Origin: an uncultured Lachnospiraceae bacterium
Lineage (GTDB): Bacteria > Bacillota > Clostridia > Lachnospirales > Lachnospiraceae
DNA length: 43,123 nt
Direction: 5' to 3'
Assembly: GCA_948470905.1 (NCBI GenBank)
Contig: CAOKQK010000024.1
Coordinates: forward strand, 1 to 43,123
Position numbers and translations under genes: made by a program. The notes beneath the pieces are model-generated. The model had not been told where the DNA came from. It ran no database searches and worked only from the letters and a program-made list of their open reading frames with translations. Of the stretch, positions 11,550 to 34,072 are shown one piece after another (position 1 is the first letter of the stretch; every line of letters starts with the position of its first letter).

Positions 11550-11644
11550 TTTGTCATAAATTGCCATGCAGGCTTGTTTGAGCATAGGTTCTCCTGTATA
11601 TTTTAGGGCAGAGGGGACAAAAGAAATGACAGGGAGTGGTGCGC

Positions 11645-13282
11645 GTGGAGAAACGTGTTACTGGGATATATCTTGCAGTATTGTTAATAGGAATAATCTG
11701 TGCTGTTTTTGCGGAGATTTCTTCTCGCAGCGGGATAGCTGTCGGAGCGTCAGACATGGGGGTCGCTGTGTGGGATGACAGCATGGAGATATTCCGCGAG
11801 GGTGACGCATATTGCTACAGGCGGATTCTGCCCCTGGAGGATACAGGCGGGAAAGTGATCGTATACAATACCATACACATGTATTTGGAGGTATTCATCG
11901 GCGGGGAATTGGTCTATGAGCTGAAAGCCGTGGAAGGCGGCATGGTGAAAACCACAGGGTTCTGCTGGAACACAATAGCCCTGTCGGAGGATGACGCAGG
12001 CAGGGAGATTTTGTTCCGGGTAACTCCGGTTTACAGTGACAGCAGGCCGAAAACAGGTTTTTTCTATGGTCCCTATCGGGAGATAGAGCATAAGATTCTG
12101 ACAGAGCGGCTTTTTCAGCTTGCATTGACTGTGGCAATTGCGCTGGCGGGAGTAGTCCTGCTGCTTTATGGTGCTTTAGTGGTAAAGAAGGGGCAGGATG
12201 CGCAGACGATTGTACAGTTCGCCATATTTGCCACGCTGCTTGGCATCTGGTCAATCGTAGAGACGCAGGTTCTGGATTGGATTTTTCCATGCAGCATGGC
12301 GATCGTGTTTATATCGCATCTGACGCTTATGATCCTGCCGATTCCGTTTATGTTGTTCCTGCGGTATATGTATCATAATAAGGACAGCAGGCTGTGGAGT
12401 GCCTGCTGTTATGTAAACTGTGCGGTGATTGCCGTGAGGGTTATATTGCAGGCAGCGGGGATTTGCGATCTGAGGGAGACTTTGCTGCTGACGCACATCT
12501 GTCTCCTGCTGTTTGTGGCGGTCATTGTGGCAATGACGATCCGTGAAATTGTGCTGTATGGATTTGCCGGAAGGGTCAGGATCAACAGTGTCTGTGTGCT
12601 GGTCATTCTGCTGAGCACTGTGCTGGAACTGGCAATCTATCGGTTCAGCAATATGAGTACGCCTCTGGGCAGCATGGGATTTCTGTTCTACATAACGGTG
12701 ATGGGAATTGTAAATGTGCGCAGGACCAGGGAACTCATGGAGCAGGCGCGGGAAAGCGAGCTATACCGTAAGCTTGCCTTTACAGATGAGCTGACAGGGC
12801 TTGCAAACCGTACTGCCTTCAAGGAAGACCTCGAAAAGCGCATGGAGCCGGACAAGGCAAGCGGGAGAGAGACAATATTGCCCACTGTTATCTTTATGTT
12901 TGATTTGAATGACTTAAAAAAATGCAATGATACCTATGGTCATGACTATGGCGATCGTTACATTAAAATGGCTGCGGACATCTTAAAGAAGCTTTTTGCC
13001 CGGGAGGGCAGGTGTTATCGTATCGGCGGAGATGAATTCTGCGGCTGGGCGCCCTATACCTCGTTGGATAAGATCAATGAAAAGCTCCAGACGCTGGAGC
13101 AGAATATCAGAGAGCTGAACGACAGGGGATTTGTGGTGCCTGTCAGCATTGCCGTGGGTTATGCAATCTATGTGGAGGGCGAGGACGGCGGTGGCCTGTA
13201 CAGTACCATGAAACGGGCAGATGCCATGATGTATGAGAGAAAACAGGAGTACAAGAAACAGAAGCTGGGAATAAAAGAATAA
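11645..13282 (+). CDS. Membrane diguanylate cyclase, 7TM-DISM-like, GGDEF
   Basis: This 545-residue protein makes cyclic di-GMP. It has an N-terminal anchor (ITGIYL-like segment, residues 5-24), an extracytoplasmic domain of about 130 residues, then seven closely spaced membrane segments (about 155-360) as in 7TMR-DISM receptors, and a C-terminal GGDEF domain. The active-site loop RIGGDEFCGW is intact near residue 459, and LTGLANRTAF near 385 is also standard. The upstream inhibitory RxxD site is absent (the positions read A and G), so product inhibition is not expected. AGGGAG at 11631-11636 supports GTG 11645; a GTG at 11636 in the same frame would overlap that site. A terminator follows. 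Confidence 0.88.
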   Translation: MEKRVTGIYLAVLLIGIICAVFAEISSRSGIAVGASDMGVAVWDDSMEIFREGDAYCYRRILPLEDTGGKVIVYNTIHMYLEVFIGGELVYELKAVEGGMVKTTGFCWNTIALSEDDAGREILFRVTPVYSDSRPKTGFFYGPYREIEHKILTERLFQLALTVAIALAGVVLLLYGALVVKKGQDAQTIVQFAIFATLLGIWSIVETQVLDWIFPCSMAIVFISHLTLMILPIPFMLFLRYMYHNKDSRLWSACCYVNCAVIAVRVILQAAGICDLRETLLLTHICLLLFVAVIVAMTIREIVLYGFAGRVRINSVCVLVILLSTVLELAIYRFSNMSTPLGSMGFLFYITVMGIVNVRRTRELMEQARESELYRKLAFTDELTGLANRTAFKEDLEKRMEPDKASGRETILPTVIFMFDLNDLKKCNDTYGHDYGDRYIKMAADILKKLFAREGRCYRIGGDEFCGWAPYTSLDKINEKLQTLEQNIRELNDRGFVVPVSIAVGYAIYVEGEDGGGLYSTMKRADAMMYERKQEYKKQKLGIKE

Positions 13283-13483: not shown

Positions 13484-13513
13484 TTGACATAAGTATATAT
13501 ACTGTGATACACT
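13484..13513 (+). promoter_or_regulatory. Sigma-A-type promoter for 1404-residue protein
   Basis: A perfect TTGACA (13484-13489), an 18-base spacer and TACACT (13508-13513), preceded by TG at the extended -10 position. The upstream 40 bases are very AT-rich, like an UP element. It lies about 40 bases before the TTG start at 13553. Confidence 0.6.
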
Positions 13514-13552
13514 TAACAATAATGGTGTTGATCAAAATAAGGAGTAATTACC

Positions 13553-16500
13553 TTGGATAATATAGAATATACGATAAAGAAGGATGAGATACGGTCACTG
13601 ATAGCTCAGAAGGAATATGCACAGGCGGCAGAGATAGCGGATACCGTTGACTGGCGCAGGATCAGAAGCGTTATGATGCTGTGTACGATCAGCGATCTTT
13701 ATAAGATTAACAGGCGTTATGAAGACGCTAAAAATATGTTGCTTTTGGCGTATGAATACAGGCCGGGGGGAAGGAGCATATGTTATTCTCTCTGTGAACT
13801 TTGCATTAAGATGGAGCAGTTTGTGGAGGCAGTCGCATATTTTAAGGAATTTGTGCAGGCGGCTCCCAAGGATCCTGACCGATATATCCTGCAGTACAAG
13901 CTTTACGAGGCGCAGGATGTGAGCCTGGAGGAGCGCATTGAAGTTTTAAAGGAACTGAAACAGAAGGAGTATCGGGAGAAGTGGGCTTATGAGCTTGCGT
14001 ATCTTTATCACAGGATAGGGCAGGCGACGCTGTGTGTGGAAGAATGTGATGAGTTGATCCTGTGGTTTGGCGAAGGGAAATATGTGTACAAGGCAATGGA
14101 GCTGAAAATGCTGCATCAGCCTCTGTCGCCTTCTCAGCAGGAAAAATATGCTCAGCGTTCTGACGGTATACGGTTGAAAGAAAGTTTGCCCAAGGCGTCT
14201 CAGAATGTTGTATATCCTCAGTCACGCGAACAGAGCCAGGGGTATGTACCGCAAGCCCATGAACAGTCACAGGGGTATGCGCCGCTGCAAGGGAATGAAC
14301 AGGCTCAAGGTTATGGCCGGCGGCAAACACATGAGCAGCAGGGTAACATACAATTACAGGGCTACATACAGCTGCAGGGCTATGAACAGGGTCAGGGATA
14401 TGTGCAGGACCAGGTCTATGACCAGAGCCAGGGATATGTGCAGGATCAGAGCTATGACCGGAGCCAGGGATATGTGCAGGACCAGGGCTATGACCAGAGC
14501 CAGGGATATGTGCAGGACCAGGGCTATGACCAGAGCCAGGGACATGTGCAGGACCAGGACTATGAACAAGAGTATGGTTATGGGCAAGTCCAGGGATATA
14601 TGCAGGGGCAGAGTTACGGGCAGCTGGAGGGCTGCGGGCATGGGCAAGGATATGTGCAGCAGCCCCAGAATTATGGGCAGGTTCAGGAAGAAGCTGTATC
14701 GCAGGTTGTTACAGATGCATCAGAGCGTTTTTTAAGGGGGCAGTCCTCTCTTGTGGGACAGAATTTTGAAGGCTCACAGAATCTGATCCAGGCGGAGGCG
14801 GGGCAGGGGAATGGCGATAAAGGGAGTGAGGCTGAGATTCAGGTGCCCATAATGGATATGGGCCAGTATAATACCATGAATCTGCAGGCGGAGATTGCGG
14901 CAGGGCTGCAGGAGGTTCTTGAAAAAGAGAACAATGCCCATGATGACATTACACATTCCATTATAGCGCCTATGCTGGAAGCTGATACCGGACAGCTGGA
15001 TGGATTGGATGCGGAAGACACTGAGGAAGAGGAACTTAATCCTGATACTGAAGAAGTAGAGGAGACAGAGGTTTTCTTTGGTGAGACCGGGGAGATCAAC
15101 AGCGCGCGACTTGGAGGCATGGGAGAAATCGTGCCTGAAATAGGATTCGGGGAAGTGCGGGAAATCGTGCCGGAGATGAGTTCTACACAGATCCCTGGAA
15201 TGGATTCTGCACAGATCTCCGGAATGGATTCTGTACAGGCATCGGAAGGGGATTCTGCGCAGGCATTTGATGTCAGCAGCGATACCAAAGTCTTTGAGAT
15301 TGTGCATACGAAAAATAGCACGGCAAAGCAGGAGGGTGTGGCTGGAGCTGACAGTGGTTGGCAGAAAGCTGACAGGCCAGGGGCTGGCAGAGAGAGTCTT
15401 GCCGGAGAAGCTGAGACTGATATGATGCAGGTCGGGACCTTGCCGGATACAGTACAGGCGGCTGATGCGACGGCAGAGTTTGTCATGAATCAGATGCGCA
15501 TGGAGAATAAGGCAGAGGCGCAGGCAATGATTGCGCAGCCGCCCAGGGAGCTTGCTGATGTGCTTTCCCAGGAATCGGATGGCCAGATCAGCCTTGTGGT
15601 GCCGGAGAAGGAAGCCGTTGAAAAGCAGATTACCGGTCAGATGAGCATTGAGGACATTCTTGCGGAATGGGAGCGCATAAAGCAGGAAAGCACAGAGAGG
15701 CGCAAGGCAGAGCTGCAGCAGCGTGTCCAACAGCAGACGGGAAATATGTTTACGGAGTTTGAGGCGGCTGTCAGGGACGGGCTGCTGGAAAGACTTGAGA
15801 GCGAAATGGACCGGGAGCTTGGGGAAAGACCGGCGCAGAAAGGGCAGGAGAGTCTTGGAAAAGCTGAAAATCATGAGGATTATGAGGAAGCTGAAGAACT
15901 GGAAGAGATTCAGGAACAGGATGAAACGGCGGATTTGGAGGACGTTGTCGTTGGCCATAGGACAGAAGGTTCAGAAGCAGCTGTGGATGAGCCGGAGCAG
16001 GCAGGTGAGACGGCACTCTCATTAGAGCCGAAAATATATGAAGGATCAGTGCCAGCACCGGAAAGGACAGAAGGCTCCGTGCCGGAGCGGTATGAGGCAG
16101 GTGTGCCCATTCCGGCGTCAAAGCCGGAAATATCAGAAGTGCCGGAGTCAAGGAAGGAGAAGGATGAAGTGCCAGCACCGAAGCCGGCAGCAGCAATGCA
16201 GGAGCAGCTGGAGGTAGATGAGGAATCAGTACCTGAGCCAAATCCGGAAATGTATGAAGAATCAGGACCTGAGCCAGGGCCGGAAATATATGAAGGATCG
16301 GTGCCAGCACCGGAAAGGACAGAAGGCTCCGTGTCGGAGCGGTATGAGGCAGGTGTGCCCATTCCGGCGTCAAAGCCGGAAATATCAGAAGTGCCGGAGT
16401 CAAGGCGGGAGAAGGATGAAGTGCCAGCACCGAAGCCGGAAGCAGAAATGCAGGGGCAGCAGGAGGTAGGTGAGGAATCAGCGCCTGAACCAGAGCCGGA

Positions 16501-17767
16501 AATGTATGAGGGATCAGTACCTGAGTCAGAGCCGGAAATGTATGAGGGATCAGGGTCTGAGCCAGAGTCGGGAATATATGAAGGATCAGTACCTGAGCCA
16601 GAGTCGGAAATGTATGAGGAATCAGTGCCTGAGCCAAGTCCGGAGATGTATGAAGGATCAGTGTCTGAGCCAAATCCGGAAATCAATGGAGAATCAGGAC
16701 TTGAACCAAATCCCGAAATGTATGAGACATCAGCGCCTGAATCGGAGCCGGAAATAGGAGAGCAGTCTGTGCCGGCGTCGAAACCGAAAATATTGAGAGA
16801 GCCGGCGTCAGCGCCAAGACCGCGGAAGCCGCAAAAACCCATGCCGATGTCAGAACAGAGGCAGCAGAGTTTTGCAGAGTTGGAAGAGTATACATCTTAC
16901 AACACCGGGGAAGCTACAGATTATGTGGCGGAGGAAAGCGAAGGCGCCATATATGATGCAGCAGGGACGGCGCCGTTGGAAGACGGCGGTCAGCCTTATG
17001 GGGAACAGGAACGCCCGGCCATCAGACAGCTTACCATTGAAGAAAGGGAGCTGTATGCTCCCTATATTCAGAGCCGTTCCGCGAAAGAGCAGTTGGTACA
17101 GGCGATTGACAATATCAGCATGGCGGCATATACGGGTAATATCGTCATCACAGGTGACGAGGGCATGAATACCATTACGCTTGCAAAAAATATGATCCGC
17201 GAAGTGCAGATGATGGATCGGAATTTTTCGGGAAAGGTGGCAAAGATATCCGGCCAGGGACTGAACCAGAGGAATGTGAGGGAGACTCTGGAGCAGCTGA
17301 AGAACGGCGCCCTGATCATCCAAAAGGCGTCCGGCATGGAGGCAGGTACGGCTGCGGAGCTGACAAAGTTCCTGCGGCAGGAAAATGTGGGAATCATCAT
17401 TGTCCTGGAGGATACCAGGAAGGCAATTACAAGGCTTTTCGCGGAGTATCCGCATCTGGGGGCAAGCTTTACGGCATGGATGGATGTGGAGTCGCTCAGC
17501 AACGACACGCTGGCCAATTTTGGCATGAAATATGCCCGTCAGAAGGAATACGCTATTGATGATCTGGGCATGCTGGCGCTGCATAGGAGGATAGAGGAGC
17601 TGCAGACCATCGACCATGTGGTGACGGTGGTAGAGGTCAAAAACATTGTGGATAATGCCATCCGTCATGCGAGCAAGAAGTCGCTGGGGCATTTTATGGA
17701 CATTCTTTTGGCAAAGCGCTATGATGAAGAAGATATGATCATTCTGACAGAAAAAGATTTTGTGTGA
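13553..17767 (+). CDS. Giant repetitive protein: TPR-like, Q/G/Y-rich, P/E repeats, degenerate AAA+-like end
   Basis: This 1404-residue protein has no signal peptide or membrane segment, so it is probably cytosolic. Residues 1-200 are helical and TPR-like (YAQAAEIADTVDWRR, YEDAKNMLLLAYEYRP, FVEAVAYFKEFVQAAPKDP). Residues 220-380 are rich in Q, G and Y, with 12-residue units GYVQDQGYDQSQ. Residues 380-800 are acidic. Residues 820-1090 carry proline/glutamate repeats such as PEMYEGSVPEPE. Residues 1155-1404 look like an AAA+ fold: VITGDEGMNTITLAKNM near 1198 sits where Walker A belongs but lacks the lysine, and GALIIQKA near 1253 sits where Walker B belongs but lacks DE. It therefore probably does not hydrolyse ATP. 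AAGGAG lies 8 bases before the TTG start. Function unknown; a scaffold or assembly role is a guess. Confidence 0.8.
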   Translation: MDNIEYTIKKDEIRSLIAQKEYAQAAEIADTVDWRRIRSVMMLCTISDLYKINRRYEDAKNMLLLAYEYRPGGRSICYSLCELCIKMEQFVEAVAYFKEFVQAAPKDPDRYILQYKLYEAQDVSLEERIEVLKELKQKEYREKWAYELAYLYHRIGQATLCVEECDELILWFGEGKYVYKAMELKMLHQPLSPSQQEKYAQRSDGIRLKESLPKASQNVVYPQSREQSQGYVPQAHEQSQGYAPLQGNEQAQGYGRRQTHEQQGNIQLQGYIQLQGYEQGQGYVQDQVYDQSQGYVQDQSYDRSQGYVQDQGYDQSQGYVQDQGYDQSQGHVQDQDYEQEYGYGQVQGYMQGQSYGQLEGCGHGQGYVQQPQNYGQVQEEAVSQVVTDASERFLRGQSSLVGQNFEGSQNLIQAEAGQGNGDKGSEAEIQVPIMDMGQYNTMNLQAEIAAGLQEVLEKENNAHDDITHSIIAPMLEADTGQLDGLDAEDTEEEELNPDTEEVEETEVFFGETGEINSARLGGMGEIVPEIGFGEVREIVPEMSSTQIPGMDSAQISGMDSVQASEGDSAQAFDVSSDTKVFEIVHTKNSTAKQEGVAGADSGWQKADRPGAGRESLAGEAETDMMQVGTLPDTVQAADATAEFVMNQMRMENKAEAQAMIAQPPRELADVLSQESDGQISLVVPEKEAVEKQITGQMSIEDILAEWERIKQESTERRKAELQQRVQQQTGNMFTEFEAAVRDGLLERLESEMDRELGERPAQKGQESLGKAENHEDYEEAEELEEIQEQDETADLEDVVVGHRTEGSEAAVDEPEQAGETALSLEPKIYEGSVPAPERTEGSVPERYEAGVPIPASKPEISEVPESRKEKDEVPAPKPAAAMQEQLEVDEESVPEPNPEMYEESGPEPGPEIYEGSVPAPERTEGSVSERYEAGVPIPASKPEISEVPESRREKDEVPAPKPEAEMQGQQEVGEESAPEPEPEMYEGSVPESEPEMYEGSGSEPESGIYEGSVPEPESEMYEESVPEPSPEMYEGSVSEPNPEINGESGLEPNPEMYETSAPESEPEIGEQSVPASKPKILREPASAPRPRKPQKPMPMSEQRQQSFAELEEYTSYNTGEATDYVAEESEGAIYDAAGTAPLEDGGQPYGEQERPAIRQLTIEERELYAPYIQSRSAKEQLVQAIDNISMAAYTGNIVITGDEGMNTITLAKNMIREVQMMDRNFSGKVAKISGQGLNQRNVRETLEQLKNGALIIQKASGMEAGTAAELTKFLRQENVGIIIVLEDTRKAITRLFAEYPHLGASFTAWMDVESLSNDTLANFGMKYARQKEYAIDDLGMLALHRRIEELQTIDHVVTVVEVKNIVDNAIRHASKKSLGHFMDILLAKRYDEEDMIILTEKDFV
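14390..14570 (+). repeat. In-frame 36-bp tandem repeats (Q/G/Y-rich)
   Basis: About five 36-bp units encode GYVQDQGYDQSQ and close variants. Units near 14468 and 14504 are almost identical at DNA level, which points to recent expansion or slippage. Confidence 0.8.
16030..16492 (+). repeat. In-frame 252-bp direct duplication plus 39-bp P/E repeats
   Basis: The stretch beginning about 16030 recurs 252 bases (84 codons) later with only scattered differences; for example the segment at 16041 recurs at 16293. From about 16480 to 16760 shorter units of about 39 bp encode EPEPEMYEGSVP-like motifs. All lie inside the 1404-residue gene and keep the frame. Confidence 0.8.
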
Positions 17768-17784
17768 AAGGCGGTAACAATGTA

Positions 17785-19692
17785 ATGAAGACAGAGAGAG
17801 AGAAAGTTTTTATTTCCGAGGCTGATCAGTATCTTTTCTCCCAGGGAACCCATTATGACATTTATAAGAAGCTGGGTGCGCATGTATCTGTGGAGGAAGG
17901 CGTGGAGGGCATTTATTTTGGCGTATGGGCGCCCAATGCCAAAGAGGTGCATGTAGTGGGCGGCTTCAACGGCTGGAATGAGTTCGCGCATCCCATGGAG
18001 AAGCTTGGCCCTGTGGGGATATGGGGGCTGTTTATTCCTGAGGTGGAGCTGGGGGAGATGTATAAGTTCCTGATCACTGCACAGGATGGCAGAAAGCTGT
18101 ACAAGGCGGACCCCTTTGCCAATTATGCGGAGCTGCGTCCGGGCACAGCATCCATCATTACGGATTTAAGCGGTTTTGCGTGGAAAGATGAGAAATGGAT
18201 GGAAGAACGGGAAGAAAAGGACATGAACCGGGAGCCCATGGCAATCTACGAGTGCCATATCGGGTCCTTTATGAAGCATCCTGACGGGACGGAAGACGGT
18301 TTCTACAACTATCGTCAGTTCGCGGACAGGATTGTAGATTATTTGAAAGAAATGAAGTTTACCCATGTGGAACTGATGGGTATTGCGGAGCATCCCTTTG
18401 ACGGTTCGTGGGGCTATCAGGTGACAGGCTATTATGCGCCTACATCCAGATATGGAACGCCGGAGGACTTCATGTATCTGGTGAACAGGCTGCACAGGGC
18501 AGGTATCGGTGTGATCCTGGACTGGGTGCCGGCACATTTTGCCACGGACGCCCATGGGCTGGGGCAGTTTGACGGCCAGTGTATTTTTGAGCATCCCGAT
18601 CCCAGGAGGGGAGAGCATCCCGACTGGGGCACCAAGATCTTTAATTATGGCAAGCCGGAGGTCAAAAATTTCCTTATAGCCAATGTGTTGTTCTGGATCA
18701 GGGAGTTCCACATTGATGGCATTCGTGTGGACGCGGTGGCATCCATGTTGTATCTGGACTATGGCAAGCAGGATGGCCAGTGGCTGCCCAACGAGTACGG
18801 CGGCAACAAGAACCTGGAGGCGATCGAGTTTTTCAAGCATTTGAATTCCGTGGTCAGGGGTACTTATCCGGGGTTTCTTACCATTGCGGAGGAATCCACC
18901 GCGTGGCCGGATGTGTCCGGAGACATAGGGACCGACAGCCTTGGTTTCTCTTTTAAATGGAATATGGGGTGGATGCATGACTTCTGTAATTACATGAAGC
19001 TGGATCCTCTTTTCCGTAAGGGGGATCATCACGGTATGACCTTTGCCATGAGTTATAATGAAAGTGAAAAATACATTCTGCCCATCTCTCATGATGAGGT
19101 AGTTCATTTAAAGTGCTCCATGGTGAACAAGATGCCGGGATTTCAGGTTGACAAGTATGCGAACCTGAGAGTGGGTTATACTTATATGTTCGGGCACAGC
19201 GGCAAGAAGCTTTTGTTTATGGGCCAGGAGTTCGGGCAGGAGAGAGAATGGAGCGAGGCGCGGGAACTGGATTGGTTCCTGCTGGGTGAGAAGAACAATT
19301 TAGGGATGCAGACCTATGTGAAGGAGCTCCTGAAAATATATCACAAGTATCCGGCGTGCTACGAGCTTGACGACAGCTGGGCGGGGTTTGAGTGGATGGA
19401 TGCCGATGACGCGGAGAACAGCGTGTATACTTTTGTGAGGAGGTCTTCCGCGGGAACGGGCAGTCTGCTGTTCGTGCTGAACATGACGCCTGTAAAGCGT
19501 GAGGAATATCGGGTTGCCGTACCTCTTAAGAAAAAATATAAGCTGATCCTGAACAGCGACGAAGAACGTTTCGGCGGCTGGGGCAATGAGGTTCCGGCGG
19601 AATTGACGGCGAAGAAGGTTCCTCATAAAAACCAGAAAAACTCAATTGTAGTAGATCTTCCGCCCTACACCGCGCTGGTATTTGCATTCTAG
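17785..19692 (+). CDS. glgB: 1,4-alpha-glucan branching enzyme
   Basis: This 635-residue GH13 enzyme transfers alpha-1,4 glucan segments to 6-hydroxyl groups, making the branches of glycogen. A CBM48-like N-terminal domain (YFGVWAPNAKEVHVVGGFNGW) is followed by the catalytic barrel. The nucleophile aspartate is in GIRVDAVASMLY near residue 315, the acid/base glutamate in AEESTAWP near 368, and the third carboxylate in ISHDEVVH near 436. Length fits enzymes lacking the extra N1 domain of Escherichia coli GlgB. ATG 17785 is preferred over a GTG at 17764 that overlaps the previous stop; AAAGGCGG lies between. No other glycogen genes are nearby, so co-transcription with the large repetitive protein may be incidental. 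Confidence 0.95.
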   Translation: MKTEREKVFISEADQYLFSQGTHYDIYKKLGAHVSVEEGVEGIYFGVWAPNAKEVHVVGGFNGWNEFAHPMEKLGPVGIWGLFIPEVELGEMYKFLITAQDGRKLYKADPFANYAELRPGTASIITDLSGFAWKDEKWMEEREEKDMNREPMAIYECHIGSFMKHPDGTEDGFYNYRQFADRIVDYLKEMKFTHVELMGIAEHPFDGSWGYQVTGYYAPTSRYGTPEDFMYLVNRLHRAGIGVILDWVPAHFATDAHGLGQFDGQCIFEHPDPRRGEHPDWGTKIFNYGKPEVKNFLIANVLFWIREFHIDGIRVDAVASMLYLDYGKQDGQWLPNEYGGNKNLEAIEFFKHLNSVVRGTYPGFLTIAEESTAWPDVSGDIGTDSLGFSFKWNMGWMHDFCNYMKLDPLFRKGDHHGMTFAMSYNESEKYILPISHDEVVHLKCSMVNKMPGFQVDKYANLRVGYTYMFGHSGKKLLFMGQEFGQEREWSEARELDWFLLGEKNNLGMQTYVKELLKIYHKYPACYELDDSWAGFEWMDADDAENSVYTFVRRSSAGTGSLLFVLNMTPVKREEYRVAVPLKKKYKLILNSDEERFGGWGNEVPAELTAKKVPHKNQKNSIVVDLPPYTALVFAF

Positions 19693-19921: not shown

Positions 19922-20647
19922 ATGAGGAAAAAGTTGGCAGTGATGTTACTGCTGGGTGCGCTTTTGACAGTTACGGCATGTGCGGCGGGGAATGTGGAGG
20001 AGCCTGGGGCGGAGGCTGACCCTGACCGGTTCCCAGTGGAGGATATGGTGTCTCCTGAAAACACGCCGGAACCGAAGGAGACAGCGAAAGCCGACGTGGC
20101 ATCGGCTCCCGGTTCCGGACTGGAATCAAAGGTAGTATGGAAGGCGACACCCTCCCCCAGGCCTGCAGAATTGGATTATACTGTGGAAGAACGCATTGCC
20201 GCCATTAAAATGCCCCAGGAATGGTATGCATTTTCCTGTGACAGGGACAAGGTCATATTTTACAGCAGGGGCGAGGAATACGGATGGCTTGCGCCCTATG
20301 AGTTTACACCTGTCAAAGGGGCTTCTGAGGTCGACAGCATTATCCATGATCTGTCGGGGGCAAACGGTATCACGGAGCTGATAGACACCCGTGAGGAGGG
20401 CAATGCGGTCCGCTATGTGTTTGCAATCCACAGGAGCCGTTACGCCATGGGGGAAGTGGAATTCCTGGCGCAGGCAGGGATCATCTCCGAGGAGGAAGCC
20501 ATGGCACAGGAGCGGACAGAGCTGTTCATAGCATACAAGGTAAACGGAGAACAGTGGTGGGGCTTCAGTGTAAAGAGCGATATATTCGGCGGGGAAGGGC
20601 TTCTGGATGCCCTGAAATTTGAGATCACCTTCGTGGAGATAAATTAA
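19922..20647 (+). CDS. Lipoprotein of unknown function
   Basis: This 241-residue protein has a lipoprotein signal peptide (MRKKLAVMLLLGALLTVTAC, modified cysteine near residue 20). A linker rich in E, P and A follows to about residue 80, then a compact domain containing PQEWYAFSCDRDKVIFYS and ending in KFEITFVEIN. The two-tryptophan stretch GEQWWGFSVKS near 205 is a notable feature. I do not recognise the family. It would sit on the outer face of the membrane. GAAGGGAG precedes ATG 19922. Its stop overlaps that of the convergent phosphodiesterase gene within TTAA at 20644-20647, so neither transcript can end before entering the other gene. Confidence 0.75.
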   Translation: MRKKLAVMLLLGALLTVTACAAGNVEEPGAEADPDRFPVEDMVSPENTPEPKETAKADVASAPGSGLESKVVWKATPSPRPAELDYTVEERIAAIKMPQEWYAFSCDRDKVIFYSRGEEYGWLAPYEFTPVKGASEVDSIIHDLSGANGITELIDTREEGNAVRYVFAIHRSRYAMGEVEFLAQAGIISEEEAMAQERTELFIAYKVNGEQWWGFSVKSDIFGGEGLLDALKFEITFVEIN

Positions 20648-22551
20648 TTCCTTTCTTTTAAAAATGTTATGAACTCGCCGGCTTCTATGGGTTTTGAAAA
20701 ATAGTAGCCCTGGATATAGTCGATACCTAAACCTTCCAGCACAGTCAGCTGCTCGGCAGTTTCCACACCTTCGGCGACAGTTTTTAACTGCATGTCGTGT
20801 ATCATATTGGTGGCTGCCTGCAGCACGAACTGTGCTTTTTCTGTCTCAAAATATGACTGTGTCATGTCATGGTCGAATTTGACAATCTGGACAGGCATAT
20901 CTACAATGTAGTTCAGATTGGACTGCCCGTTTCCGAAGTCATCCAGAGAAAATTCCACGCCATAATCAATGAGCCTGCGCATGTTTTCGAGCAGGATATT
21001 TTTCCTGGCAATGGCGGCGGATTCTGTGATTTCCAGGTTGATGAACCTTGGGGGCAGATCGTGCTTTTTCATGATATTGATGTATTCTTCCGCCAGGGAT
21101 CTGCATTCACACTGGACCACCGAAAGATTCACTTCGATGTACTCAATACCGTATTTTTCAATGTCATTCTCCTTGATAAAGCGGCAGGTTTTTTCAAATA
21201 CGATTGCACCGATCCTGCCTATCAGGCCGGTTTCCTCCGCGATGGGGATGAACAGCCCGGGCGGGATAATGCTGCCGTCAGTACGGCGGATACGCACCAG
21301 GGCTTCCGCAGACACAAACTTCTTTTTTGCGGTGGAATATATAGGCTGGTAAAAAACCTCTACGCGGTCTTCCTTCATGGCGTTAAGGATTGTCTCCAGC
21401 ATTTCTTCACGGGCGCGTTTTTCGGCAATGGTCTTTTCATCCAGGGTCAGTATATAGCTTTCGGAGAGATCCGCGCAGTGCAGGCGGAAATGTCTCAGCA
21501 GTCCCAACATTTCCTCGGCGCTTTTGGCTACGTTCCCGGAGGGGATGAACAGATAATGCGGCTGTATCAACAGGGGCTCCTGGTCGGGACTGTCCGGGCT
21601 ATCCGCCAGCCATCCCTGCTGGAAACGACCGCAGACCAAGGCGCGCACCTTTTCAAATGTCTCAGGATTTTCAAAGGAGAGAGAAAATTCCCGGTCGTCC
21701 GTCTTGAATACCATGGTGTCAGGCAGCTGCCTGATGAATTGTACGATCTCCCCCATGGCGGCTTCTTTTTTGGGAATAGGAATGTTCTGCTTTTGGATAT
21801 TATCAAGGGAGACCATGATGCCATAACAGTTTTTGCCCAGAAGATACTGCTGTTTGATAAATTCTACCAGGGCATAACTGTTGTAAAAGCCTGTGCTCCT
21901 GTCTATGTATATCTCGGGATTTTCAAGCTCAAAAAAGAGGATCATCATACCCATTGCGCCGGCAAAGCCCACCAGAAGAAGCTCGCTGTTCAGAAATTGG
22001 GTGAGGGCGGCAATAATCCATATGATCAGCCAGAGCGCTATGGCGTTGCGTCGTTTGGGGTTCATCTGCCTGCCATGTATGTACAGCTTGCACAGGGTTG
22101 CGGCGATCAGGATCAATGCGCCGATGTAGGTGGCGGTGCATGCAGGCCCATAGGTATAGGCAATGCTGCCGCCTTCATAGAAGATGCTGATAGGGGCGGC
22201 AAAGATAAGCAGGGCAGTTCCCACAACGGCGAAGGTCAGCCGGATAGTGAATTTGTCGGCTTTGGCAAGATGCCGGATGTCGGCGTTGGCGTAGAGGAGC
22301 GCCATATAGCCCGTGGCAACCAGGGAGACCAGGTATGCCTTGCATTCTGTCCTGACGATCCACAGGGGGACGATGTCCTGGTTCACGATCAGCACTATGG
22401 ACAGGATATCCAGCACAAGACAGACGAACGTGACATAGAGCGTGCGCATGAAAAGCCTGCTGATATACAGGCCCAATGTTCCCTGACGCTTATAGAAATA
22501 GAGTAAAAGCAGTAAGATACCGATTCCGCCCAGCTGCATCTGAATGTTCAT
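20644..22551 (-). CDS. Membrane c-di-GMP phosphodiesterase, degenerate GGDEF plus EAL
   Basis: This 635-residue protein degrades cyclic di-GMP. The first 220 residues hold about seven membrane segments. Next comes a GGDEF-like domain whose signature is lost (DDREF near residue 283), probably regulatory, then an EAL domain with SAEALVR near 415. Catalytic features are present: ITESAAIA, LDDFGNGQSNL, KFDHDM, AEGVET and QGYYFSKPI. These cover the metal ligands and the lysine, so activity is predicted. Cytoplasmic catalysis opposes the cyclase at 11645. AAGGGGT lies about 12 bases before ATG 22551. A possible minus-strand promoter (TTGCCA, 18 bases, TAAAAT at 22732-22703) would give a leader of about 145 bases containing the short repeats. 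Confidence 0.9.
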   Translation of the reverse strand: MNIQMQLGGIGILLLLLYFYKRQGTLGLYISRLFMRTLYVTFVCLVLDILSIVLIVNQDIVPLWIVRTECKAYLVSLVATGYMALLYANADIRHLAKADKFTIRLTFAVVGTALLIFAAPISIFYEGGSIAYTYGPACTATYIGALILIAATLCKLYIHGRQMNPKRRNAIALWLIIWIIAALTQFLNSELLLVGFAGAMGMMILFFELENPEIYIDRSTGFYNSYALVEFIKQQYLLGKNCYGIMVSLDNIQKQNIPIPKKEAAMGEIVQFIRQLPDTMVFKTDDREFSLSFENPETFEKVRALVCGRFQQGWLADSPDSPDQEPLLIQPHYLFIPSGNVAKSAEEMLGLLRHFRLHCADLSESYILTLDEKTIAEKRAREEMLETILNAMKEDRVEVFYQPIYSTAKKKFVSAEALVRIRRTDGSIIPPGLFIPIAEETGLIGRIGAIVFEKTCRFIKENDIEKYGIEYIEVNLSVVQCECRSLAEEYINIMKKHDLPPRFINLEITESAAIARKNILLENMRRLIDYGVEFSLDDFGNGQSNLNYIVDMPVQIVKFDHDMTQSYFETEKAQFVLQAATNMIHDMQLKTVAEGVETAEQLTVLEGLGIDYIQGYYFSKPIEAGEFITFLKERN

Positions 22552-22823: not shown

Positions 22824-25800
22824 TTGAAAATAACATTTAACCAGCAACCAACGAAAGAAACAGAGAGGAGACACGTAGACAGGAGATATGCACAGTACGG
22901 CTCCGGAAAGACGGACAGCATGTCGGCGGCGAATGCTGCCTTTGCCAGGGTGGGCGACAGGCAGCTGGACGGTCTGGCAGGCGGAAATGCCGAAAAGGGC
23001 AAGAGCCTGATCGAGCTGCAGCAGGAGGCTGACAACGTGGATGTGGGCGTACAGCGGGATTTTATGACCGTGATGTCAAATACCCTGTCCGAAGAAGACT
23101 ATGCCAAGCTGCAGAAGGAAGGTTTTGACCTTTCTGAGATGGATCCGGAAGAAGTTGTGACGATCGTAGACAGGATCAAGGCGGAGCTGGTACGCGCTGG
23201 CAAGAATATCAAGGGTTATACCGATGACCTGGATATGAAAACCCTTGCGGCCGCCCTGGGAAGTGAGACGCTGGCGAAGGCTGTGGCGGACAGCTTCGCT
23301 AAGGCGGATGTTCCCATGACAAAGGAAAACCTTGCGGCAGTGCAGCAGGCTTGGAACATGGGGAGGAATCTGCAGCCTATAAATGACGGCTCCAGCCAGT
23401 ACCTGATCGACAATGAGATGGATCCCGAGATATGGAACCTGTATGTAGCGGAGAACAGCGGGGCAGGGCAGGGGAGCAGCGTGCCCAAGTTCTATGAGGA
23501 GGATGTCCGGGGATATTACGCACAGCAGTATACCGGACAGAATAAGGGCGTGGGAGAGGACACTGCCCGGACCGCCCAGAGGACGGATGCACAGAAAAAG
23601 GCGCAGGCTGAGAATGCCCGGAAGACAGAGGCCTATAGAGAAGCACAGTCCCAGGGTGCCCAGAGGGCGGATGCCCATGGGGGGGCACAGCCCCAGGGCG
23701 CGTGGGGGAGCGGCGCCCAGAAGGGAACAGTGCATGCTCCGGGGCTTCAGGCACAGATCGACCATGTTATCGAGCGCTCCGGCAGGGAAGTGAACCAGGA
23801 GAGCAGGGAGATGGCGGAGTGGCTGCTTGACAGGGGGCTGCCGCTGACAGAGGAGAATATGGACAGGCTGGAGAGCTTTCGTGAGGTGGATCTGCCCCTG
23901 ACGGAGGAGGCATTTGCCAAAGCCGCGGCTGACGCGGTGGCGGAGGGAAAGAGCCCGGTACATGCTTCCCTGGCGGGAACCGGAGGAAATCTGTATGAGA
24001 AGGCTGCGGCAGTGTCCGAATATTACCACAGCAGTGAAGCATGGGAGAAGGCAGTAGGAGATATCACGGCCAGGCGCCAGCTGGAGGAGATCCGTCTGCG
24101 GATGACGGCCGAGGTAAATGTAAGGCTCTTAAGGAGTGGTTTTGCCATTGACACAGCCCCCATGGAGCGGCTGATTGATGCGCTGAGGCTGGCGGAGAAA
24201 GATCTTGCGCAGCATTACTTCCCCGGGGATGCACAGGCAGTGGAAAAGTACCGTACTTATCAGAATGTCAACGCGGTGGTGTCGGAGATTCCCGGGCTGC
24301 CGGCGGATGTGCTGGGCGGTTTCGTGTCGAGCAAAGGCGATATTGTGGGAGATCCTTTTGCGGAGTTTGGCGAGGGCTACATGGACGAGATCACCCCGGA
24401 AAAGCTTTATACTACAGGTAAGGCGATACAGGAATCTTATGATAAAGCGCAGAACAGATATGAGGAGCTGATGACCGCGCCCCGGGAGGATATGGGCGAC
24501 AGCATCCAGAAGGCATTTGGCAATGTGGATGAAATCCTGGATTCCCTGGGCCTGGAATTCACCGAGGAAAACCGCAGGGCGGTAAGGATCCTGGGCTACA
24601 ACCACATGGAAATGACACATGCCAACATAAGGACGGTGCTTGAGGCTGACAGACAGGTGAAGTCGGTGGTGGATAAGCTGACCCCGGCGGCGACGCTGAA
24701 GATGATCAGGGACGGCGTGAATCCCCTGGAAAAGAACTTTGACGAGTTGGAGGAATATTTTAACAAGCTGCCCAATGAGTACAGGGATTCGGCGCAGAGC
24801 TACAGCCGCTTTCTGTACGGGCTGGAGAAAAATCACAAGATTACGCCCGAGGAGCGTGAGAGCTATATAGGTATCTACCGTCTGGTGAACCAGCTGGAGA
24901 AGTCGGATGGGGCGGCAGTGGGCGCCCTGGTCAATACCCATGCGGAACTCCATTTCGCCAACCTGTTGTCCGCGGTCCGAACCAACAGAATAAGGTCCAT
25001 GGATATACGGGCGGACATAAACGCTGCGGCAGAGATGATGCGCGACGGCGCCAGCATATCGGCACAGATTGCCAAAGCGTTCAGTGCAGGAGCCAGGAAG
25101 GTATTGTCGCAGGTGTCATACAGTGAGGAGGCGCAGAAGGAATATGATGCACAGGAACTGGACACAATGCGGCAGTCTGTAGCTGACGCCGACAGGGAGT
25201 GTGTTGCCATGCTGCAGAGGGGCGAAATCACCCAGAGCGCAGACAACCTGATGGCGGCACAGGCGTTGTTGAACGGCAACGAAAATATTTTCGGGCGTCT
25301 TATGGGCCGCGGGAGAGAAGAACGCTATGACAACAACAGGTATGATTATGATGAAGATCCTGGTATGAAGGGCGGCGACCTCTGGGAGATGCTTGGCGAT
25401 AAGGAGGAATTTGTCCAGGAATATGCCGCCACGGCCAAAGAAGCGGAGGAGGATGTGGAGGAGATGACCTTTGAGGCCAGCTCCAGTGTGGATGTGCGCC
25501 AGATGCAGCTTCTGCACAAGCAGCTCCATGTGGCTTCCTCCCTGGCGAGGACGGAGGAGTATTTCCTGCCCATGTATATGGGAGACACTGTGGCGAGGGT
25601 GCATCTGACCATGAACAGGACCGGCGGGAACCAGGGCAATGTGGCTATAGACGTTAATTTGGGAGAGGAGCGCATTCATGCTGACCTCCGGATGGCAAAC
25701 GGGGTCATTGATGGAATTTTAACAACAGAAAATCCAAATGAGGTAATGAATCTGCGGAGAATAGCCGATATCTTTAAGGGCGTTGCAGGGAGCATCTGGA

Positions 25801-25964
25801 AGGTAGGGGATGTCAGTGTCGCAGCGCCGGGTACTGTAATGCAGGAGACAGCAGCCGGATCGGATGAAAGAACGGAAAGCGTCGAGCTGTACCGCATGGC
25901 AAAAGTGTTCCTGCAGTCAGTGGAGCAGGGAGACATAGGACGGAAATATAAGTCCGGGTTTTAA
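22824..25964 (+). CDS. Large flagellum-associated protein, possibly DUF6240/FliK-like
   Basis: This 1046-residue protein has no signal peptide or membrane segment. A helix-rich body carries recurring (L/V)P(L/M)T(E/K)EN motifs near residues 162, 338, 357 and 578, like a degenerate helical repeat. A low-complexity Q/A/R-rich linker occupies about 245-310. The last 150 residues (YFLPMYMGDTVARVHLTMNR, then NPNEVMNLRRIADIFKGV) have the strand and helix pattern of the FliK C-terminal hook-length domain. This suggests an export-substrate or length-control role, but the similarity is weak. I associate such proteins with DUF6240, from memory only. AGGAGA precedes the TTG start. Flagellin follows after 35 bp, probably in one operon. 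Confidence 0.65.
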   Translation: MKITFNQQPTKETERRHVDRRYAQYGSGKTDSMSAANAAFARVGDRQLDGLAGGNAEKGKSLIELQQEADNVDVGVQRDFMTVMSNTLSEEDYAKLQKEGFDLSEMDPEEVVTIVDRIKAELVRAGKNIKGYTDDLDMKTLAAALGSETLAKAVADSFAKADVPMTKENLAAVQQAWNMGRNLQPINDGSSQYLIDNEMDPEIWNLYVAENSGAGQGSSVPKFYEEDVRGYYAQQYTGQNKGVGEDTARTAQRTDAQKKAQAENARKTEAYREAQSQGAQRADAHGGAQPQGAWGSGAQKGTVHAPGLQAQIDHVIERSGREVNQESREMAEWLLDRGLPLTEENMDRLESFREVDLPLTEEAFAKAAADAVAEGKSPVHASLAGTGGNLYEKAAAVSEYYHSSEAWEKAVGDITARRQLEEIRLRMTAEVNVRLLRSGFAIDTAPMERLIDALRLAEKDLAQHYFPGDAQAVEKYRTYQNVNAVVSEIPGLPADVLGGFVSSKGDIVGDPFAEFGEGYMDEITPEKLYTTGKAIQESYDKAQNRYEELMTAPREDMGDSIQKAFGNVDEILDSLGLEFTEENRRAVRILGYNHMEMTHANIRTVLEADRQVKSVVDKLTPAATLKMIRDGVNPLEKNFDELEEYFNKLPNEYRDSAQSYSRFLYGLEKNHKITPEERESYIGIYRLVNQLEKSDGAAVGALVNTHAELHFANLLSAVRTNRIRSMDIRADINAAAEMMRDGASISAQIAKAFSAGARKVLSQVSYSEEAQKEYDAQELDTMRQSVADADRECVAMLQRGEITQSADNLMAAQALLNGNENIFGRLMGRGREERYDNNRYDYDEDPGMKGGDLWEMLGDKEEFVQEYAATAKEAEEDVEEMTFEASSSVDVRQMQLLHKQLHVASSLARTEEYFLPMYMGDTVARVHLTMNRTGGNQGNVAIDVNLGEERIHADLRMANGVIDGILTTENPNEVMNLRRIADIFKGVAGSIWKVGDVSVAAPGTVMQETAAGSDERTESVELYRMAKVFLQSVEQGDIGRKYKSGF

Positions 25965-25999
25965 AGGAAGAACCCTGGGCTGACAGGGAGGTATAATTT

Positions 26000-27163
26000 A
26001 TGAGAATTAATTACAATGTATCTGCAATGCTGGCGAACAATGCATTGGCAAACAATGATAAGATGCTGGCGCAGTCTTTGGAGAGGTTATCCTCCGGACT
26101 GAAGATCAATCATGCCAAGGATAATCCCGCGGGGCTTGCCATGGCAAAGAGGATGAACGCGCAGCTGAAGGGAGTTGCCGTGGCGAACCAGAATGCAGGC
26201 GACGGTGTCTCCGTGATTGAGATAGCGGACGGCGCAATGTCAGAGATCCATGACATGCTGCACAGGATGAATGAGCTTGCCATCAAGTCCGCAAACGGCA
26301 TTGAGTCGGAGAGCGACAGAAAGATCATCCAGGATGAGGTCGCGCAGCTGAAGCAGGAGATCACCAGGGTTGCCGAGACTACGGAGTTTAACGGGATGCC
26401 GCTTTTAAACGGAGATTTCTCCCTGAAGGGATATACGGACGAAGAAAGTGTCAAGGTGAGCTCTTATTCAAGGGATGTGCCGGCGAAGATTTACGAGCTT
26501 GACGACATGAAGATCGAGGAGGAGATTATCACCAGCATCGACGAGAAGACGGGTGAAGAAGTGCAGACCGTAACTTATAAAGTAGATATTGATTTCGATA
26601 AGAACACTACCAACACGAAATTCCCGGATGGGGCAACTGCGGAGATTAAGGATAAAATGGTCACGATCAAGGCGCCCAACGGCTTTGAGATGAATCTTGA
26701 CCTGAGCAATGCGAATTTTGACGCAATGCCTTTGGAGTATACCAAGATCACCATAGACGCTACCGGTATCGGCCCCATGCGGCTGCAGGTGGGCGCAAAC
26801 GAAGGACAGATCCTGGAGGTGGATATTCCGGAGATTTCCCTGAGACATATGGGAATTGAGGAACTGGATGTGACGACTCCGGAGAGCTCTCTGGATGCCA
26901 TAGAGCGTCTTGACGGCGCTGTCAGCTATGTGTCCCGCGTGAGAGGACAGCTGGGAGCGTACCAGAACAGGCTGGAATCCACAATGAACAGCCTGGATAT
27001 TACATCTGAGAATATGACGGCGGCTTATTCCCGGATCATGGACGTGGATATGGCGGAGGAAATGACCAATTATACCACCAACCAGGTTCTGACCCAGGCG
27101 GGGACTTCCATGCTGGCACAGGCGAATGAAAGGCCGTCTCAGGTGCTGCAGCTGCTGCAATAA
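26000..27163 (+). CDS. fliC: Flagellin
   Basis: This 387-residue flagellin is the filament subunit, exported through the flagellar type III system. The N-terminal D0/D1 part (MRINYNVSAMLANNALANND, then SLERLSSGLKINHAKDNPAGLAMAKRM) and the C-terminal part (SRIMDVDMAEEMTNYTTNQV, LTQAGTSMLAQAN, VLQLLQ) are clear. The middle, about residues 145-285, is a variable, strand-rich, charged region that would face outward. There is no signal peptide, as expected. AGGGAGGT lies 7 bases before ATG 26000. The gene lies 35 bp behind the large flagellar gene and 106 bp before fliS. Two strong hairpins downstream may set the flagellin:FliS ratio or protect the mRNA. Confidence 0.95.
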   Translation: MRINYNVSAMLANNALANNDKMLAQSLERLSSGLKINHAKDNPAGLAMAKRMNAQLKGVAVANQNAGDGVSVIEIADGAMSEIHDMLHRMNELAIKSANGIESESDRKIIQDEVAQLKQEITRVAETTEFNGMPLLNGDFSLKGYTDEESVKVSSYSRDVPAKIYELDDMKIEEEIITSIDEKTGEEVQTVTYKVDIDFDKNTTNTKFPDGATAEIKDKMVTIKAPNGFEMNLDLSNANFDAMPLEYTKITIDATGIGPMRLQVGANEGQILEVDIPEISLRHMGIEELDVTTPESSLDAIERLDGAVSYVSRVRGQLGAYQNRLESTMNSLDITSENMTAAYSRIMDVDMAEEMTNYTTNQVLTQAGTSMLAQANERPSQVLQLLQ

Positions 27164-27170
27164 ACCCACA

Positions 27171-27247
27171 ATCCCGCTGCACACAGCGGGATATGCAGAC
27201 TTCGCGGCATGAGCCAAAATCCTGTGGATTATGGCTCATTGCCCGCG
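27171..27247 (+). promoter_or_regulatory. Two hairpins between flagellin and fliS
   Basis: The first is ATCCCGCTG paired with CAGCGGGAT (about 27171-27192, 4-base loop). The second pairs ATGAGCCA (27209-27216) with TGGCTCAT (27232-27239), continues as AATCC/GGATT across one A-A mismatch around a TGT loop, and can extend outward by CGCGG/CCGCG (27203-27207 with 27243-27247). Neither has a T-run, so partial attenuation or mRNA stabilisation is more likely than full termination. The second overlaps an inverted copy of the CCCGCGGGCAATGAGCC repeat. Confidence 0.6.
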
Positions 27248-27269
27248 GAGACTAATTTGAGGTATCAGG

Positions 27270-27746
27270 ATGACAAGGGAAGATAAACAACAGTTTACCC
27301 GTAGGATTTCACAGGCAAATCCTACGGAGCTGACGGTTATTCTGTATGAGATGCTGCTCTGCTACCTGGAGGACGCGAAGGGGGCGCTTGTCCAGAAAGA
27401 GGATGTGGCGCTGCACGCGGCTGCGCAGAGTGTACGCGGCTGCCTGAACGAGCTGCTGAATTCCCTGCATATGGAATATGCGCCGGCAGCCGAGCTGTAC
27501 AGGCTTTATATGTTTTGCATCAGGCGCCTTGCGCTGGGAGAATACCGCAGGGATGCCGATATTCTGGGAGAGATAGAGCGAGTGATCCGCCCTCTCCGCG
27601 ATGCCTATCAGAGCATAGCCCATAAAAACACTGCAGGGGCAGTGATGAACAATTCTCAGGCTGTCTATGCCGGTTTAACCTATGGGCGGGAAGCATTAAC
27701 CGAAAACATGGCTGACCAGGGTGCGAATCGGGGAATGCTTGTATGA
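27270..27746 (+). CDS. fliS: Flagellin export chaperone FliS
   Basis: This 158-residue helical protein matches FliS, which binds the flagellin C-terminus in the cytosol, prevents early polymerisation and delivers it for export. Recognisable parts are the N-terminal FTRRISQANPTELTVILYEM helix, the ALHAAAQSVRGCLNELLNSLHMEY segment, and the C-terminal AGLTYGREALTEN. It is slightly longer than Bacillus FliS. It directly follows flagellin, the usual partner. GAGGTATCAGG precedes ATG 27270. Its last 51 bases overlap the 3' end of the convergent DUF2508 gene. No FliD or FliW gene is seen. Confidence 0.87.
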   Translation: MTREDKQQFTRRISQANPTELTVILYEMLLCYLEDAKGALVQKEDVALHAAAQSVRGCLNELLNSLHMEYAPAAELYRLYMFCIRRLALGEYRRDADILGEIERVIRPLRDAYQSIAHKNTAGAVMNNSQAVYAGLTYGREALTENMADQGANRGMLV

Positions 27747-30041: not shown

Positions 30042-30075
30042 TGAGGCGGCTTTGAGCGGGAGAGGAGGGTATTGG

Positions 30076-31314
30076 GTGGAGTACGCGGAATTAAAAAAGG
30101 AGCTGCGCCGCAGGGTGCAGGAAAAGATGGATTTTGTCAAGGATCTGTCGGATGACGAGGTGGCACAGACCATAGATGAGGTGTTGCTGGAGCAGAGGGA
30201 GCTTATGATATATCCTGTGGAACTGCGCAGGCGCCTGAAAAAGGAACTTTTTGATTCTCTGAGGCGGCTGGATATTCTTCAGATATTCGTGGAGGACAGC
30301 TCGGTGACAGAGATCATGATCAATGGCAAGGACCATATCTTTGTAGAGCAGGATGGGAAACTCAGGGAGCTTGACATCGGCTTTGAATCCGTAGAAAAGC
30401 TGCAGGATGTGATACAGCAGATTGTAGCGGGATGCAACAGGGTCGTAAACGAGGCTTCTCCCATCGTGGATGCCAGGCTGCCAAACGGCGCAAGGGTGAA
30501 TATTGTGATGAATCCCGTCGCGCTTAACGGGCCGATCGTGACCATCCGCCGGTTCCCTGACAAGCCGATCACCATGGAGCGTCTGCTCCAATTGGGTTCT
30601 ATTTCTTCGGAAGCCGCCTGTTTCCTCGAGACTCTGGTAAAGGCAGGCTATAATATTTTCATCAGTGGCGGGACCGGGAGCGGCAAGACCACATTCTTAA
30701 ACGTACTGTCACATTATATTCCGTCGGAAGAAAGAGTCATCACAATTGAGGACAGCGCGGAGCTGCAGCTGCAGGGCCTGCCAAATCTGGTGAGGCTGGA
30801 GACCCGCAACAGCAATGTGGAGGGCTGCAGCGAGATCACGATCCGGGAGCTGATCAAGGCGTCTCTGAGGATGAGGCCTGACAGAATTATTGTGGGGGAG
30901 GTCCGTGGAGCGGAGGCTGTGGATATGCTGCAATGCCTGAACACAGGGCACGACGGGAGCATGTCTACAGGGCATGCCAACAGCGCCAGGGATATGCTGG
31001 CAAGGCTGGAAAATATGGTGCTGATGGGAATGGAGCTGCCGCTTGCCGCGATCAGGCAGCAGATAGCCTCCGGTGTGGATATCCTGGTGCATCTTGGGAG
31101 ACTGCGTGACAAATCCAGGCGTGTGCTGGAGATTACGGAGCTTGTGGGCTGTGAAAACAATGAAATGAAGTTAAATCCCCTGTTTGAATTTGAGGAATCG
31201 GGCGAAGACAGCGAGGGAAGGGTAATGGGAAAGCTTCAGAAGAAAGGAGGGCTTTATTGTGACAATAAACTCAGGGCAGCGGGATTATCGATATTATCAG
31301 TGGCAGAGGGGTGA
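30076..31314 (+). CDS. tadA: Tad pilus assembly ATPase TadA/CpaF
   Basis: This 412-residue secretion ATPase drives pilus assembly from the cytosolic face. The N-terminal helical region leads to DSSVTEIMINGKDHIFVEQDGK, the CpaF family stretch. The motor core has Walker A GGTGSGKTTF near residue 198, an Asp-box region TIEDSAELQLQGLPNLVRLE, Walker B RIIVGEVRGAEAVDML near 272 and the His-box TGHDGSMSTGHANSARDML near 292. All key residues look intact. GTG 30076 is chosen because GAGGAGGG lies 6 bases upstream; a TTG at 30052 in frame has no comparable site. The end overlaps the start of TadB by 56 bp, and TadB's AAAGGAGG lies inside this gene. Confidence 0.95.
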   Translation: MEYAELKKELRRRVQEKMDFVKDLSDDEVAQTIDEVLLEQRELMIYPVELRRRLKKELFDSLRRLDILQIFVEDSSVTEIMINGKDHIFVEQDGKLRELDIGFESVEKLQDVIQQIVAGCNRVVNEASPIVDARLPNGARVNIVMNPVALNGPIVTIRRFPDKPITMERLLQLGSISSEAACFLETLVKAGYNIFISGGTGSGKTTFLNVLSHYIPSEERVITIEDSAELQLQGLPNLVRLETRNSNVEGCSEITIRELIKASLRMRPDRIIVGEVRGAEAVDMLQCLNTGHDGSMSTGHANSARDMLARLENMVLMGMELPLAAIRQQIASGVDILVHLGRLRDKSRRVLEITELVGCENNEMKLNPLFEFEESGEDSEGRVMGKLQKKGGLYCDNKLRAAGLSILSVAEG

Positions 31315-32029: not shown

Positions 32030-32083
32030 TGAAAAATCGGAACAAGTTCCTGCAAGAGGAATTTGAAAAAAGGGGGTGTGGAA

Positions 32084-34070: not shown

Positions 34071-34072
34071 GT

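Follow-up and report, generated by a model that had tools for sequence, protein, structure and literature searches.

An apparently undescribed Lachnospiraceae protein with a TPR head, a long island-bearing tether and a degenerate AAA+ end

According to one published account (PMC10659427), SpoVK, CbbX and EccA are AAA+ proteins of one clade with the signature GY at sensor 1, CbbX is a working Rubisco chaperone, and EccA, which acts on substrates of type VII secretion systems, consists of N-terminal tetratricopeptide repeats (TPRs) and a CbbX-type AAA+ domain. The DNA analysed here (the window) is a stretch of 43,123 nucleotides from an uncultured Lachnospiraceae bacterium (contig CAOKQK010000024.1), which carries at 13553..17767 (+) a gene for a 1404-residue protein with a TTG start and an open reading frame (ORF) whose translation was checked. 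The ORF is real, and the four parts that a sequence-only reading had assigned to its product are all there. They are a head made of TPRs, a Q/G/Y repeat tract, a P/E repeat tract and an AAA+ fold in which the Walker A lysine and the Walker B acids are missing. Dead AAA+ domains are a known kind of module, combinations of TPRs with AAA+ domains are known too (PMC10659427), and no description of a family combining a TPR head, a long island-bearing tether and a pseudo-AAA+ domain was found in the literature searched; the family-wide joining of a dead AAA+ domain to TPRs by such a tether is apparently undescribed. What can be said most safely is that the window encodes a conserved protein that tethers two ends, the ATPase end having turned structural in the clade of the window. 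With moderate confidence we go further and regard the gene as a copy of a core Lachnospiraceae protein, derived from a TPR plus AAA+ chaperone of the SpoVK-CbbX-EccA clade and acting as a non-hydrolysing cytosolic adaptor or scaffold.

The C-terminal region (residues about 1155-1404; 17015..17764, +) is a degenerate AAA+ domain of the SpoVK/CbbX/EccA type. Its AlphaFold2 model has an AAA+ fold, with a predicted local distance difference test score (pLDDT) of 85 and a predicted template modelling score of 0.70, and its best structural match in the Protein Data Bank (PDB) was CbbX; the AAA+-like C-terminus proposed earlier is thus borne out, and no non-AAA fold was obtained. As a single-sequence query against the PDB, the window C-domain gave chance-level matches only, and a profile was needed to recover the clade relation, with an E-value of 2e-7 to EccA1. 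The SpoVK model TIGR02881 was matched at E up to 0.01 by all 20 C-domains scanned and the EccA model by 15 of the 20. By profile and fold homology, the C-domain belongs to the SpoVK-CbbX-EccA clade.

The catalytic motifs of this domain are lost in the window, as the sequence-only reading had stated for the first two of them. Walker A reads GDEGMNTI (17153..17176, +), with the Lys lost, and Walker B reads NGALIIQKAS (17303..17332, +), with no acidic pair. Sensor 1 reads VLEDT against ILAGY of L186 (loci are numbered with L and genomes with G), the region of the first Arg finger reads YPHLGASF, without Asn and finger, and the second Arg finger or sensor 2 region aligns, uncertainly, as VVTVVEVKNI with no Arg. 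The Walker B Asp-Glu pair is present in none of 179 family C-domains and, when L186 is added, in L186 only; of these 180 domains, 138 have D or E as the first acid and 16 have Glu at the Glu position. Sensor 1 GY is likewise found in 0/179, the Asn upstream of the first Arg finger in 81/179, and Arg at the finger position, a column chosen by alignment to L186, in 8/179. On a tree of the N-domain, from which the motif was left out, the Walker A Lys is absent from all 85 rows of the clade of the window (Shimodaira-Hasegawa-like approximate likelihood ratio test 99) but kept by 31 of the 32 rows that join one node deeper. Changes elsewhere bring the total for this Lys to 8 on this quick tree, which has many weakly supported branches and long-branch warnings, and counts of independent losses are therefore rough. 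One Lys row, L131, was rejected as an alignment coincidence with no P-loop. Ratios of nonsynonymous to synonymous substitution rates for the C-domain were 0.024-0.105 in 11 measurable pairs (16 pairs shown of 33 chosen), all 11 being without the Lys and the sole Lys-keeping pair shown not being measurable, with synonymous sites near saturation in many pairs. Both folded ends are conserved and under purifying selection.

At the other end, residues 1-203 (13553..14161, +) form an N-terminal TPR superhelix according to Pfam, the family profile and the AlphaFold2 model of the orthologue L065. Single-sequence Pfam matches of the window to TPR models were weak, lay inside residues 43-112 and were all below curated cut-offs, and the family N-domain profile matched designed and natural TPR proteins, the best (E 7.9e-31) being a designed one. 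The L065 model has 12 helices over residues 3-203, with block pLDDT above 90 up to residue 200, and the head has the tandem helix pairs of TPR type that define the superfamily, in agreement with the TPR-like N-terminus suggested at first. No Pfam or NCBIfam model exceeded its cut-off for the window protein, and among three relatives searched against Pfam a generic TPR model did so in one only.

The two folded ends are joined by a linker of 116-995 residues (median 493) with an acidic fraction of 0.18-0.48 (median 0.29) among 175 distinct linkers; four of these are longer than that of the window, and none is richer in Q/G/Y. The full-length alignment shows two marked islands, island 1 at residues 428-457 (14834..14923, +; consensus DIQVKTxDVGQYNTINLQxELA) and island 2 at residues 670-753 (15560..15811, +; consensus LSQEYDGQISLVVPE...EKQITGQLSIEDIMAEWE...), and the strict motifs YNT[LIM]NLQ and I-x-GQ[MLI] occur in 67/96 and 89/96, respectively. 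In the AlphaFold2 model of L065, a short orthologue, the linker has pLDDT mostly below 50, island 1 is a predicted helix with block means of 60-74, and island 2 consists of predicted short strands and a helix with block means up to 84. Overall, the tether is acidic and evolves fast, with the two islands as its conserved points. In the window it also carries P/E-rich tandem repeats at 16024..16755 (+), made of a 252-nucleotide duplication and 36-nucleotide units (2.1 and 7.9 copies by Tandem Repeats Finder), with 79 E and 52 P among the 330 residues 801-1130. The extended P/E spacer read from the sequence is matched by acidic low-complexity linkers across the whole family, so low-complexity parts are not absent from the relatives.

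The N-domain (199 residues) matched 284 of 299 genomes of the GTDB family of the window, of which 280 have a single match each. The single-sequence query gave some weak matches among these, and 12 of 12 weak cases re-tested by profile were confirmed at E 5.8e-16 or better; G180 was confirmed by profile at 1.0e-14, and the match in G020 is weak (1.1e-4, single-sequence query). In a sample of the order, 36/196 genomes matched, 22 of them in the family, and among the 14 others only G354 (8.5e-12) was better than 1e-6; in a sample of the class, 31/291 matched, 10 of them in the family, and among the 21 others only G646 (2.1e-15) was better than 1e-7. Apart from the two proteins with a TPR head and several AAA+ domains described below, what these samples yielded outside the family were weak matches to TPRs. 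Viral contigs scanned with the window C-domain as a single-sequence query, which reaches close relatives only, gave nothing. The 80 named relatives come from the top of a longer list and are mostly Lachnospiraceae, including Acetatifactor, Butyrivibrio, Blautia, Eisenbergiella and others, many of them metagenome-assembled genomes; alignment A2 holds 20 of 21 rows (L050 left out), A3 holds 73 of 75 listed relatives (L108 and L112 left out), and A4 holds the window and 70 of the 75 (L088, L091, L093, L100 and L103 left out).

Both domains lie in one ORF in 95 of the first 100 relatives (91 distinct proteins), the other five being cut by a contig end, and in 181 loci of the larger set, of which two lie outside the family and 179, counting the window, belong to it (175 distinct proteins). 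ORFs with the N-domain only numbered 13, and in six of them a contig end truncates the frame. Four others, from divergent genera (L175, L180, L182 and L183), have the C-domain in a neighbouring ORF, as a gene fission would leave it, although sequencing frameshifts are possible there, and L178 is fused; L177 looks split and was not counted because a run of unknown bases, an assembly gap, lies inside. As the N- and C-parts are fused in most loci and adjacent in these four, they probably act together. Two unusual forms were observed: L181, of 347 residues, has no AAA+ core but retains a portion of the TPR head and, by a weak match (E 0.007), the final lid helix with the EDDF tail, and L184 is an open frame of 2474 residues with an AAA+ core near residues 518-633 and about 1800 residues after it.

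Among described proteins, EccA of mycobacterial ESX secretion (EccA1, PDB 9lur) is the nearest in plan, and since it already joins TPRs to an AAA+ domain of this type (PMC10659427), the statement of the sequence-only reading that nothing known joins these parts was wrong. EccA differs in that the accessible part of PMC10659427 describes a beta-helix and no long acidic linker for it, and in that the catalytic residues are absent from the window AAA+ domain. It also acts on type VII secretion substrates, whereas the recurrent neighbours of the present family are housekeeping and flagellar genes; those identified are ksgA, tatD, glgB, DUF6240, flagellin and FliS genes, and no support for a secretion role was found among these identified neighbours. 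CbbX, the red-type Rubisco activase (PDB 3syk, 3zuh), is the best structural match at an identity of only about 14-16 %, and its chains of 289-309 residues leave no room for a comparable TPR head or linker. SpoVK, a sporulation AAA+ chaperone for MurG, is of the same clade, but the window scores 20.9 bits on TIGR02881 against a curated cut-off of 422.95 and has lost the motifs; that equivalog is restricted to sporulating Firmicutes, whereas the present gene also occurs where a genome gives no match to SpoIVA. The closest layout outside the family occurs in L186 and L187 of other Clostridia, where a TPR head matching the family profile (E 8.5e-12 and 2.1e-15) precedes tandem AAA+ domains of the same SpoVK-like type, a second precedent for joining these parts. 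These two proteins differ in having no long linker and two to four AAA+ domains, of which five of six carry GNPGTGKT or GNAGTGKT with FIDEAY (by eye). A role in a defence system was considered and rejected: PADLOC returned nothing for the window protein and L065, and three weak matches for L044, all in the P-loop region.

If the protein acts as we favour, as a cytosolic adaptor or scaffold that does not hydrolyse ATP, its TPR head would hold a client, the islands would dock further partners or the protein's own ends, and the tether would set the reach and keep the assembly soluble. The pseudo-AAA+ end would no longer be a motor but would persist because it binds proteins or assembles with itself, and the Q/G/Y and P/E repeats would be lineage-specific expansions of the linker that may tune clustering without being the core function. 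Several points weigh against this. GK[TS] is kept in 76/179 family C-domains, five of which also have an acid and Glu at Walker B, and some relatives may therefore bind or even hydrolyse ATP; the catalytically dead state, as judged from the motifs, would describe the clade of the window and not the whole family. An N-domain match is lacking in 15/299 family genomes, where a profile search that allowed E-values up to 10 returned weak matches in two and none in 13, so that the function is either not indispensable or the head too divergent there. L176 and L181 have an N-domain ORF in which no AAA+ core was found. Lastly, of the cytosolic scaffold proposed by the sequence-only reading, the scaffold-like multi-domain layout is present, and we infer the scaffold role itself from that architecture.

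A bolder form of the scaffold reading, to which we give a low probability, is that the protein is a family-wide cytosolic organiser of the Lachnospiraceae. In it, a chaperone ATPase would have become stepwise, and in several lineages, a dead structural end that the island tether links to the TPR head. Such an organiser could gather metabolic enzymes, possibly the adjoining alpha-glucan ones, with expansions of the Q/G/Y type tuning clustering.

It is doubtful that the protein is specifically a scaffold or regulator for glycogen or alpha-glucan enzymes, co-translated with GlgB, that keeps the branching enzyme and phosphorylase attached to the particle. The suggestion comes from gene order. The gene for the 1,4-alpha-glucan branching enzyme, glgB, lies downstream at 17764..19692 (+), as had been noted from the sequence, and overlaps the gene by 4 nucleotides if its GTG start is right. 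Over 96 loci, window included, glgB is the next gene on the same strand in 87, with gaps of -26 to +173 nucleotides (starts from a simple caller), and in two of the nine other loci a contig end interrupts the region. The usual order is tatD-ksgA-gene-glgB-DUF6240-flagellin-fliS (representatives identified by Pfam), with a ksgA relative in 71 loci (62 at -1), DUF6240 in 69, flagellin in 64, FliS in 57 and tatD in 46; these neighbour counts are lower bounds, many loci being truncated. At loci without an adjoining glgB, a carbohydrate phosphorylase gene flanks the gene in five (L042, L047, L252, L264 and L266) and an alpha-amylase-family gene lies 3' of it in two (L191 and L194), calls that were Pfam-confirmed in six of the seven (L047 was not scanned) and that give a hint of alpha-glucans. 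The phosphorylase loci, however, need only four changes on the tree and so represent few independent events. More widely, glgB was found within 3 kb downstream on the same strand at 129/191 loci (124 within 300 nucleotides), at only 58 of 99 assessable family-wide loci and at none of 11 divergent ones. In 16 genomes no GlgB exceeds the cut-off, yet each of them still matches the N-domain (G020 weakly), and two of them, G216 (95 % complete) and G254 (99 %), also lack an over-cutoff GlgA; conversely, all 15 genomes without a match to the gene have strong GlgB matches and an over-cutoff GlgA. The gene is thus not linked to GlgB or GlgA by co-occurrence, the connection with glgB is mainly positional, and glgB is not supported as a functional clue: gene order suggests an alpha-glucan connection and the phyletic pattern weakens it. 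The genome of the window also has a second over-cutoff GlgB (G000:C139:4202-6040), an open frame of 914 residues against 642 for the one beside the gene.

Equally unlikely, in our view, is that the protein is still an ATP-dependent chaperone, either as a degenerate subunit that joins an active AAA+ partner or as a nucleotide switch without the usual Lys. The fold, the descent from a chaperone clade and the intact P-loops of the 76 relatives mentioned above would fit this, as would L187, outside the family, in which one divergent AAA+ domain, the first, and three canonical ones follow the TPR head in a single chain. Against it stand the losses in the window, at Walker A (Lys), Walker B (both acids), sensor 1 (GY) and the first Arg finger (the finger and its upstream Asn). 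In addition, the genome of the window (about 90 % complete) has no over-cutoff SpoVK, the four other TIGR02881 matches being weak and partial.

It is quite improbable that forming condensates or amyloid through the Q/G/Y tract is the main role. The tract (residues 218-380; 14204..14692, +), defined by composition and Tandem Repeats Finder, contains 47 Q, 26 G and 21 Y among 163 residues and a 36-nucleotide unit in 5.3 copies with 91 % match; its tandem repetition is not chance, Q/Y repeats built from other units occur in L056 and L128, and L040 has a Q/P/V/Y repeat. Yet Q, G and Y reach at least 50 % over 100 residues in only four of the 175 linkers (the window, L056, L128 and L063), the median maximum being 18 %, and the linkers of close relatives, L053 and L054 among them, are nearly free of Tyr. 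The tract noted from the sequence is thus present and strongly repetitive, but it is a local embellishment of the linker and not a defining part of the protein. Least probable of all is a sporulation protein, a family-specific SpoVK: although all 20 C-domains scanned match the SpoVK model and 80/120 family genomes have a SpoIVA match, 40/120 have none, of which the 20 listed all carry the gene (as do the other 20 if the sample is G000-G119), and the sole non-carriers in G000-G119 (G018, G051 and G115) have SpoIVA.

Upstream of the gene, a sigma-70-type promoter TTGACA-18-TACACT with an extended -10 (TG) lies at 13484..13513 (+). Exact TTGACA was part of the best promoter-like match in 34/38 upstream regions (window and 37 close relatives; L074, L077, L085 and L088 lack it), often followed in the relatives by TATGRTAMACT as read by eye, so the good promoter predicted for this gene is kept in relatives. 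The TTG start is supported because the aligned starts, placed by alignment to the first residue of the window, are TTG in 35/38 and GTG in 3/38. Just 3' of the conserved promoter, many relatives (L052-L092) share a leader stretch like AATAGTGGGATA (by eye), whose counterpart in the window, at about 13515-13552, is harder to recognise. It may be a regulatory site or a leader RNA.

The surroundings in the window depart from the usual order. A GGDEF gene (11636-13282) lies directly upstream, where 62/96 loci have the ksgA relative, and a minus-strand EAL gene (20644-22551) lies between glgB and the DUF6240 gene, a local rearrangement with cyclic di-GMP genes. The block of DUF6240 protein, flagellin and FliS genes is at 22824-27746 and in relatives mostly stands two to four genes after the gene; DUF6240 may be a flagellar late gene. 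Farther on, at 30052-39274, is a pilus locus, presumably Tad-like, with T2SSE and T2SSF proteins, DUF5702 and DUF6382-FHA.

The mammalian gut has the Lachnospiraceae as one of its main bacterial groups, and the protein described here is nearly universal and mostly single-copy in them, without a Pfam or NCBIfam name. It offers a natural series from motor ATPase to structural module, in which the motifs are intact outside the family, the Walker B DE is found in none of the 179 C-domains inside it, and the Walker A Lys is gone from one large clade and scattered others while selection still acts. The identity of the client would reveal a cytosolic task that the Lachnospiraceae organise in their own way.

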